Below are positions 45,787 through 63,107 of a stretch of DNA of 64,000 nt, one piece after another (the first letter of the stretch is position 1; every line of letters starts with the position of its first letter). Made by a program: the position numbers and the translations under genes. Under the pieces are notes generated by a model. That model ran no database searches, was not told where the DNA came from, and saw nothing but the letters and a program-made list of their open reading frames with translations. Source of the DNA: Geothrix terrae (GTDB taxonomy: Bacteria > Acidobacteriota > Holophagae > Holophagales > Holophagaceae); contig NZ_JAKZLA010000001.1 of assembly GCF_022808775.1 (NCBI RefSeq), positions 372,001 through 436,000 on the forward strand. Reading direction: 5' to 3'.

Positions 45787-46042
45787 GGGGACCTCCGGGG
45801 TAGGGGAGCCTTGCGGAGCCATTATCCGCCTGTGGGGAGCTCTCAGCGTTTTCGTGAAGGTTGCAGAGGCGTGAATGGCTCAAACCTCAGATGGCTGAAT
45901 CCATTGGGCAGACTCGAACTGGCGTGTGGCTGGGCCCTGGGCCGACGGCTCCGACGCCCCGCTGGGGCGTCTCCACCTGGCCCCTACCGGCCCGCCACAC
46001 TTTCTCGGCAGTCCGAGTCTGCTTCCACTGCCGGGCGTACAG

Positions 46043-46074
46043 AAGAAGATCGGAGCCGTGGCTCCGATCTTCTT
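46043..46074 (-). terminator. Second terminator-like hairpin in the tRNA-Met array
   Basis: Stem AAGAAGATCGGAGC with its complement and a four-base loop, directly next to a tRNA 3'-end remnant (TGGTGGCTGG at 46077-46086). It parallels the functional terminator at 46257-46291. Confidence 0.65.
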
Positions 46075-46256
46075 GGTGGTGGCTGGCGTAAGACTTCGGG
46101 CCACGTCCGCGTGGCCCGAAGGAGGCAGACTCGAACTGGCCAGCGGCTGGCCCCGGCCGCGGACGCTGCGCAGGCCCCGCTGGGGTCTTGCTCGCTGCGG
46201 CCTACTGGGCCGCCGCTGTTTCTCGGCAGTTCGAGTCTGCCGGCTGCGGTGGGCAT

Positions 46257-46291
46257 ACAAAAACACCGGAGCCGCGCGGCTCCGGTGTTTT
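46257..46291 (-). terminator. tRNA-Met terminator
   Basis: A 13-bp perfect stem (AAACACCGGAGCC with its complement, loop GCGC) is followed on the minus strand by a T run. It begins four bases after the tRNA 3' end. Confidence 0.88.
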
Positions 46292-46294
46292 GAG

Positions 46295-46371
46295 TGGTGG
46301 CTGGAGGCAGACTCGAACTGCCGACCTAGGGATTATGAGACCCTCGCTCTAACCACCTGAGCTACCCAGCC
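46295..46371 (-). tRNA. tRNA-Met (CAT anticodon), elongator-like
   Basis: 77 bases with encoded CCA. The acceptor stem GGCTGGG/TCCAGCC, D-arm GCTCAGGTGGTTAGAGC, anticodon loop CTCATAA and T-arm GGCAGTTCGAGTCTGCC are all present. The first pair G1-C72 argues for an elongator rather than an initiator. There is a T-T mismatch at the top of the anticodon stem. It lies 36 bases downstream of lutC on the same strand. Confidence 0.93.
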
Positions 46372-62814: not shown

Positions 62815-63052
62815 CGCGACTTCGATTCCGATCGGCCCACGAAAAAACCCCCCTTGCGGGGGCTGGTTGGAGGCGCCGATCGGAATCCGGTTCCCGCCGC
62901 GCGGCTGGCTGCGCACGGCCCTGATCGCCGGAAACGCCACATCAAGTGGCGTCCCCGGCGGGGCCTACCTGCGCGCCATCCGCGACTTCGATTCCGATCG
63001 GCCCATGAAAAAGCCCCCTTGCGGGGGCTGGTTGGAGGCGCCGATCGGAATC
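62815..63052 (-). repeat. tRNA-Cys-derived repeat unit with duplicated terminator
   Basis: A 72-73 base block containing TTCGATTCCGATCGG, an A run, a terminator stem and GGAGGCGCCGATCGGAATC occurs at 62815-62887 and again at 62981-63052. The second copy runs into the true tRNA-Cys 3' end. Period 166 bases; only a few differences. Between them 62888-62980 is a GC-rich hairpin-forming spacer. The layout matches the tRNA-Met array at 45907-46294. Confidence 0.82.
63008..63029 (-). terminator. tRNA-Cys terminator
   Basis: Stem AGCCCCC/GGGGGCT with loop TTGC, followed on the minus strand by TTTTT, four bases after the tRNA 3' end. A near-identical copy is at 62842-62863. Confidence 0.85.
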
Positions 63053-63107
63053 GAACCGATGAATACAGGATTTGCAGTCCCGGGCCTTACCACTTGGCTA
63101 CGGCGCC
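63033..63107 (-). tRNA. tRNA-Cys (GCA anticodon)
   Basis: 75 bases with encoded CCA. The acceptor stem GGCGCCG/CGGCGCC, anticodon stem-loop around ACTGCAAAT and T-arm ATCGGTTCGATTCCGAT are clear; discriminator T. It lies 61 bases after tRNA-Gly on the same strand, so the two are probably co-transcribed. Confidence 0.95.

Follow-up and report, generated by a model that had tools for sequence, protein, structure and literature searches.

What kind of sequence carries the T-arm of a tRNA gene in both orientations around a core, and repeats this arrangement in tandem directly behind that gene? The question is raised by the DNA downstream of a tRNA-Met(CAT) gene of Geothrix terrae, in the stretch of 64,000 nucleotides analysed here (the window). 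The original prediction, made from the sequence alone, had described two units there, each with an inverted T-arm copy, a GC-rich core and a direct T-arm copy. This layout and its coordinates were borne out by repeat search and motif statistics (Table 1): the T-arm-like 15-mer GGCAGNYTCGAACTG, with at most one mismatch, has four occurrences in the window where 0.07 would be expected, a count that none of the shuffled sequences attained. Read on the tRNA strand, the tRNA-Met gene is followed by a terminator, an inverted copy, a core, a direct copy and an extra hairpin, and then by a CCA-end remnant, a second terminator and another inverted copy, core and direct copy; inserts comparable to the extra hairpin stand at the equivalent place in other Met arrays (L020, L062). 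On folding, each unit forms one long hairpin closed by pairing between its inverted and direct T-arm copies (z = -4.8 each). The description of the cores as GC-rich was correct but incomplete, since the two cores are homologous and the units can be aligned over their whole length. ARAGORN calls a tRNA-Ser(act) at 46169-46249 (+), which is unit 1 read on the wrong strand; hairpins of this kind may contaminate the tRNA annotation of Geothrix. The window also holds a second locus of the same kind, not picked up in the original prediction, behind tRNA-Cys(GCA), where the direct copy is followed by a second terminator and then by a truncated next inverted copy.

Table 1. Features of the two unit-bearing loci in the window. 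R1 and R2 are the covariance models described in the text.
Feature	Position	Strand	Basis or remark
Host tRNA-Met(CAT)	46295-46371	minus	ARAGORN; Rfam tRNA 62.5 bits; T-arm copied in both units
Terminator hairpin behind tRNA-Met	46260-46291	minus	16-bp perfect arms
Unit 1, inverted T-arm copy	46223-46241	minus	19 nt, 100% complementary to tRNA-Met
Unit 1, hairpin core (GGTAG-type superfamily, subfamily A)	46141-46219	minus	R2 50.6 bits; R1 125 bits over 46123-46242; motif reads AGTAG
Unit 1, direct T-arm copy	46124-46141	minus	Repeat search
Extra hairpin, between direct copy 1 and CCA remnant	46094-46121	minus	Inverted-repeat pair
Displaced tRNA 3' end remnant with CCA end, CCAGCCACCACC	46075-46086	minus	Read from sequence
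Second terminator hairpin	46043-46074	minus	Inverted-repeat pair
Unit 2, inverted T-arm copy, GACTCGGACTG	46005-46022	minus	Recurrent G opposite T55
Unit 2, hairpin core (GGTAG-type superfamily, subfamily A)	45924-46001	minus	R2 66.4 bits; R1 118.8 bits
Unit 2, direct T-arm copy	45907-45924	minus	Repeat search
Second host, tRNA-Cys(GCA)	63033-63107	minus	ARAGORN
Cys unit (class II) as a whole	about 62864-63002	minus
Cys unit, inverted T-arm copy	62987-63002	minus	Sequence; score 16 at +30
Cys unit, hairpin core	62901-62982	minus	R2 75 bits
Cys unit, direct copy, tRNA position 57 to CCA end	62864-62887	minus	Sequence
Truncated next inverted copy behind Cys unit	about 62823-62838

The block in the window is confirmed as part of a family of gene-free units far larger than one tRNA-Met locus, so that tRNA-Met, the host described earlier, is one among many. 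A DNA search over 60 relatives recovered the block within the genus and found units behind other tRNAs as well, with their T-arm parts altered to suit each tRNA; the records came from Geothrix (Holophagaceae, Acidobacteriota) and other Holophagaceae. In Geothrix the units measure about 140-220 bp, are often arranged in tandem, and lie 3' of tRNA or tmRNA genes. Each consists of an inverted T-arm copy, a GC-rich hairpin core with a GGTAG motif and a direct copy that runs from the T-loop on, and the tail of the unit is often the tRNA 3' end with a terminator. The motif is near-invariant in alignment A4 and stands before an inner imperfect hairpin in nearly all GGTAG-type cores, its GGTA forming an unpaired bulge in the covarying hairpin. 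A first covariance model (R1), with double changes in 20 of its 38 pairs, matched 38 of 47 genus genomes. To remove circularity, a second model (R2) was built from the cores alone, without T-arm sequence; its fold shows double compensatory changes in 22 of 25 core pairs, and it matched 25 of 27 sampled Holophagaceae genomes (five genera) and 1 of 270 other genomes of the phylum. This lone outside match (G163, from another family) is likely a contamination, because the tmRNA 3' fragment and the unit sit in a 410-contig assembly. At that locus (L290) both lie behind AT-rich DNA, which may reflect contamination or horizontal transfer.

Other repeats were observed alongside these units. A second T-arm-flanked superfamily has the same overall layout, partly in long tandem arrays, without GGTAG; its pattern reads CGAGTGGG...GCCAGACGC-GTTCGA (also written CGAGTGG...GCCAGACGC) and it occurs at Pro, Asp, Asn, His and Arg genes, in genome G000 at three tRNA-Pro genes and at Asp, Asn, His, Arg(CCG) and Arg(TCT) (loci of the superfamily: L198, L203-L206, L208, L217). 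Another repeat (GACTCGGGGCTCCGCCCC...CGCTGCGGTCGAATGG), about 90 bp long, has inserted into units or at their ends, in recurrent positions, as if one repeat family targeted the other (L049 at about 1270-1360, L050 at about 1555-1645, L115, L138, L316, L203). Genome G000 also has, at C14:157281-163603, a 6.3-kb cluster of about 26 tRNA genes, all on the same strand and many of them low-scoring, which is probably a phage or plasmid-like tRNA array.

The location of the cores is largely uniform. The fetched loci contain 130 distinct R2 cores, and 123 of these are preceded on their own strand, at a distance below 1 kb, by a tRNA or tmRNA gene; the hosts represent 19 types. The inverted-core-direct layout, when sought at other tRNA genes of this genome and its relatives, was indeed found. 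By eye, five of the remaining seven cores lie just downstream of a displaced tRNA or tmRNA 3' end (L290, L309, L316 and two in L322) and two are cut by a contig end (L292, L298). The inverted flank matched its own tRNA best among the 19 types in 117 of the 123 cases (median score 15 versus 6), and the direct flank did so in 98 of 123. In a model-free scan of the window's own genome, 17 of 45 tRNA genes had their own T-arm repeated in inverted orientation at +1 to +59, compared with 8 of 511 mismatched tRNA/T-arm pairings in the control; roughly two in five tRNA genes of this Geothrix bear units. The same scan scored 4 of 44 tRNA genes, three being units, in G152, which belongs to another genus of the family, and 0 of 34 in an outgroup genome from another family of the class.

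The copies also have exact limits, by which two classes can be told apart. Class I inverted copies stop exactly at tRNA position 47 (54 units), and the direct copies of this class can be recognised from positions 50-53. Class II inverted copies extend down to position 54 (46 units), with direct copies beginning at 57 (40 units). As every tRNA reads TTC at positions 54-56, the true class II limit may be 57 for either copy. Among 51 class I units, the inverted copy is identical to the tRNA at each of positions 47-52 (51 of 51), and at position 46 in just 2 of 51. The tRNA-Met T-stem itself occurs in four different variants among loci. Class I units whose direct copy deviates from the tRNA still have a matching inverted copy (40 of 40 at position 50 and 25 of 25 at position 51), which indicates that the inverted copy tracks the tRNA gene and not merely its pairing partner. 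Position 55 is exceptional: 38 of the 51 class I inverted copies differ there from the tRNA, and G was the sole alternative base seen opposite T55.

Several observations point to movement. Cores that are 98.7% identical stand behind Ser(TGA) and Ser(GGA) with different arms, as do cores that are 93% identical at Met in Geothrix and at Ala in another genus. The subfamily at tRNA-Arg(TCT) varies between species, one and the same tRNA bears different subfamilies or no unit in sister species, and tandem copy numbers vary. At tRNA-Asp, a predicted GTPase gene (recognised by its GRPNVGKST motif) is the immediate downstream neighbour in G152, whereas in G027, of another genus, units spanning about 400 bp separate the two. 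Behind tRNA-Val (L053) and tRNA-Ser(CGA) (L130), the far side of the unit carries a displaced tRNA 3' half together with a different terminator, an arrangement that looks as it would after insertion in the T-loop; at other loci the displaced 3' tail has been lost or has degraded. That the units are mobile or integrative elements is well supported, and we consider it probable.

How such units could integrate is suggested by CTXphi, a filamentous phage of Vibrio cholerae whose two attP copies face each other across about 90 bp; each double-stranded copy is unfit, but the two fold on one single strand into a functional site, and the phage forms tandem arrays at its target (PMC4246890). In systems of the CTXphi type, single-stranded DNA is integrated by a tyrosine recombinase of the host. 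The folded attP(+) is the closest mechanism, sharing with the units the inverted target copies that pair on one strand and the tandem arrays, and the incompatible central base of the CTXphi-type site has its counterpart in the base opposite T55 of class I. In this respect the original statement that the layout is not one known from integrons, REPs or attachment sites holds for attC and REP but leaves out the folded CTXphi site, which it resembles. Differences are that class II units keep the right half only, that the target is the T-arm of many tRNA genes and not dif, and that the units lack phage genes and have arms that track the host tRNA. Recognition by shape rather than by sequence is plausible for such hairpins, as for attC, and attC reactions would leave covalently closed ends if they were resolved by a second exchange (PMC2727003).

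We regard it as an even chance that the units are small non-coding integrative elements at the 3' side of tRNA and tmRNA genes that use a folded attachment site; this folded-site mechanism is moderately supported, and neither an excised circle nor an ssDNA form was seen in the genomes. The outer stem would consist of the inverted host T-arm copy paired with the direct copy, and the inner part of the conserved core with its GGTA bulge, so that the unit could act as a folded single-strand attachment site comparable to CTXphi attP(+) or an integron attC. The inverted copy of class I would represent an entire T-arm site in which a base of the presumed overlap (the T-loop) is recurrently changed, and the direct copy the right half only, which when folded with the inverted copy would rebuild the overlap and the right arm. 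A putative tyrosine recombinase would act in the T-loop, exchanging strands of the folded hairpin with those of the double-stranded tRNA gene, and replication would then resolve the junction, with the tRNA 3' half restored; repeated events or unequal crossing-over could generate the tandem arrays. Each genome encodes several tyrosine recombinases, none of which could be assigned to the units. An additional arm-copying step is assumed because, by plain insertion alone, a tRNA gene of another type would receive a foreign 3' half. The inverted copy may be refreshed from the tRNA gene itself, for example via a hairpin-capped or fold-back intermediate; its agreement with the tRNA, and not with the direct copy, would then be accounted for. 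More speculatively, replication of a hairpin-capped tRNA 3' half could give precisely an inverted 3' half, a core and a direct 3' half, and this would explain how the arms come to copy the target.

Two alternatives dispense with integration. The units might be genes for structured small RNAs, or might serve as cis-acting trailers in the regulation or processing of the adjacent tRNA, with the inverted copy antisense to the T-arm. Their single orientation immediately behind tRNA genes, the covarying hairpin with its conserved unpaired GGTA, the perfect complementarity of the inverted copy to tRNA positions 47-52 and the recurrent G opposite T55, a wobble pair if the molecule is RNA, would all suit such a role. 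For an RNA-level fold, however, one-sided changes should give G.U far more often than A.C. The core mismatches show no such bias (62 G.T versus 61 A.C, equal counts that do not single out one folding strand), whereas the tRNA acceptor stems of the same genomes gave 21 versus 0 and the canonical attC sites of the genus 13 versus 4; the covariance alignment, if anything, leans to G.U. The equal counts in the cores point to a constraint on the DNA fold and not on a sense RNA. Furthermore, a terminator usually stands between the tRNA and the unit, a given tRNA may have different subfamilies or none in sister species, and at the gathering score Rfam recognised the tRNA alone, the units fitting no Rfam family; we consider an RNA function unlikely. 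We judge equally doubtful the proposal that the units arose by replication accidents without a dedicated enzyme: a switch of template at the T-arm and the terminator palindrome would produce inverted duplications, which unequal crossing-over would then multiply. At Ser(GGA), Gln, Pro and Phe loci and at L063 the inverted copy is indeed the far arm of a terminator-centred palindrome, and intrastrand correction could hold the arms identical, but accidents would hardly account for a homologous core at 19 tRNA/tmRNA types and across genera, for endpoints fixed at positions 47, 54 and 57, or for the lack of inverted T-arm copies behind the 34 tRNA genes scanned in the outgroup genome.

Known mobile systems deserve the same scrutiny. 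Geothrix has a chromosomal integron outside the window (G000:C9:374660-375604; L174-L186). Most Geothrix genomes encode full-length IntI (430-471 bits, cut-off 265), as do two further genera rich in units; in G067 and G028 IntI is broken. The units could accordingly be attC-like sites used by this resident enzyme, gene-less cassettes for which the tRNA T-loop serves as attI. They resemble attC in being long imperfect hairpins with an outer stem, an unpaired spacer, an inner stem with a bulged, extrahelical base and a terminal hairpin, features that recur in the consensus folds, and class I direct copies include G53-T54-T55. Unlike attC, they have no cassette gene, are sited at tRNA genes, and have outer arms that are the tRNA T-arm and misfit the R-box consensus (R'' RYYYAAC and R' GTTRRRY), class II direct copies lacking GTT. 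IntI recombines attC on the bottom strand, and the core mismatches of the units show no strand asymmetry. The resident attC arrays, by comparison, are canonical (sites of about 124 nt, short cassettes, R boxes present) and unrelated in sequence to the units; the tRNA genes examined had no such site. Although genus-level co-occurrence with IntI looked perfect under R1, R2 and the direct scan broke it, and IntI was demoted as the agent because units occur in G152, which has no IntI; the proximity of IntI to tRNA-Arg (L191) and to tmRNA (L177) looks coincidental. A role of the resident IntI thus appears rather improbable. The GGTAG motif had prompted a further reading, in which the units are REP elements spread by a TnpA_REP (RAYT) transposase, since REPs carry a conserved GTAG (PMC8266576) before an imperfect hairpin. 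As with REP, BIME and MITE sequences, the units are small, gene-free and palindromic, with dispersed copies and GTAG 5' of a short hairpin, but they lie strictly behind tRNA/tmRNA genes (13 of 13 R2 cores in the own genome) instead of being scattered over many intergenic regions, and their terminal repeats match the host tRNA. The transposase (Y1 type, PF01797) is absent from the own genome and was found in 3 of 28 genus genomes, and by its absence this highly improbable reading is largely refuted. In rejecting both attC and REP, the original prediction was right.

A derivation from prophages or genomic islands integrated in the tRNA gene is just as remote. Islands of about 10-30 kb do occupy tRNA-Met in several species (L063, which contains a tyrosine-integrase-like ORF, L054/L055 and L056), but they cross over at the anticodon loop and displace the units intact, and for this reason were rejected as a source of the units and are treated as separate from them. 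Relatives that showed nothing but degraded prophage remnants would have refuted the original prediction, but structurally conserved, intact copies exist in almost every Geothrix genome and at all 19 host types, and the subfamily A pattern had no exact match in viral contigs. A likeness to Islander-type tRNA/tmRNA islands does exist, in which the whole tRNA is kept and a displaced 3' fragment is left (PMC4383910): the Val and Ser(CGA) loci described above show the same outcome, as supported by tRNA-Asp without and with units in the same synteny. The units differ from such islands in their small size, in the lack of an integrase or any gene, and in the extra inverted T-arm copy, and we agree with the original view that this copy is no ordinary attachment-site duplication.

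In the literature searched, where subscription papers were mostly not covered, we found no earlier description of these units, and searches on Geothrix integrons and tRNA-adjacent repeats returned nothing relevant. The claim of novelty rests on the layout and the distribution, with the mechanism inferred from them. We tentatively suggest, as a possibility short of even odds, that the units constitute a new class of mobile DNA: gene-free hairpins for which the T-arm of every tRNA or tmRNA gene is a possible insertion point and whose inverted arm is copied from the target on insertion, the process being driven by a putative folded-strand recombinase. If IntI or another known enzyme were responsible, they would be a variation on a known system. 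The sequence evidence makes the proposal directly testable, as endpoints, class positions and candidate strands are all defined. tRNA genes are the commonest landing sites of bacterial islands, and to our knowledge folded-strand integration has so far been known from integrons and some filamentous phages. If our reading of the units as integrative elements with a folded attachment site is true, this mode of integration would be extended to tRNA genes, and a site-specific element of the Holophagaceae could switch its target among 19 tRNA/tmRNA types without switching its enzyme, by means of a target-matched inverted arm through which it would re-address itself to each new tRNA.
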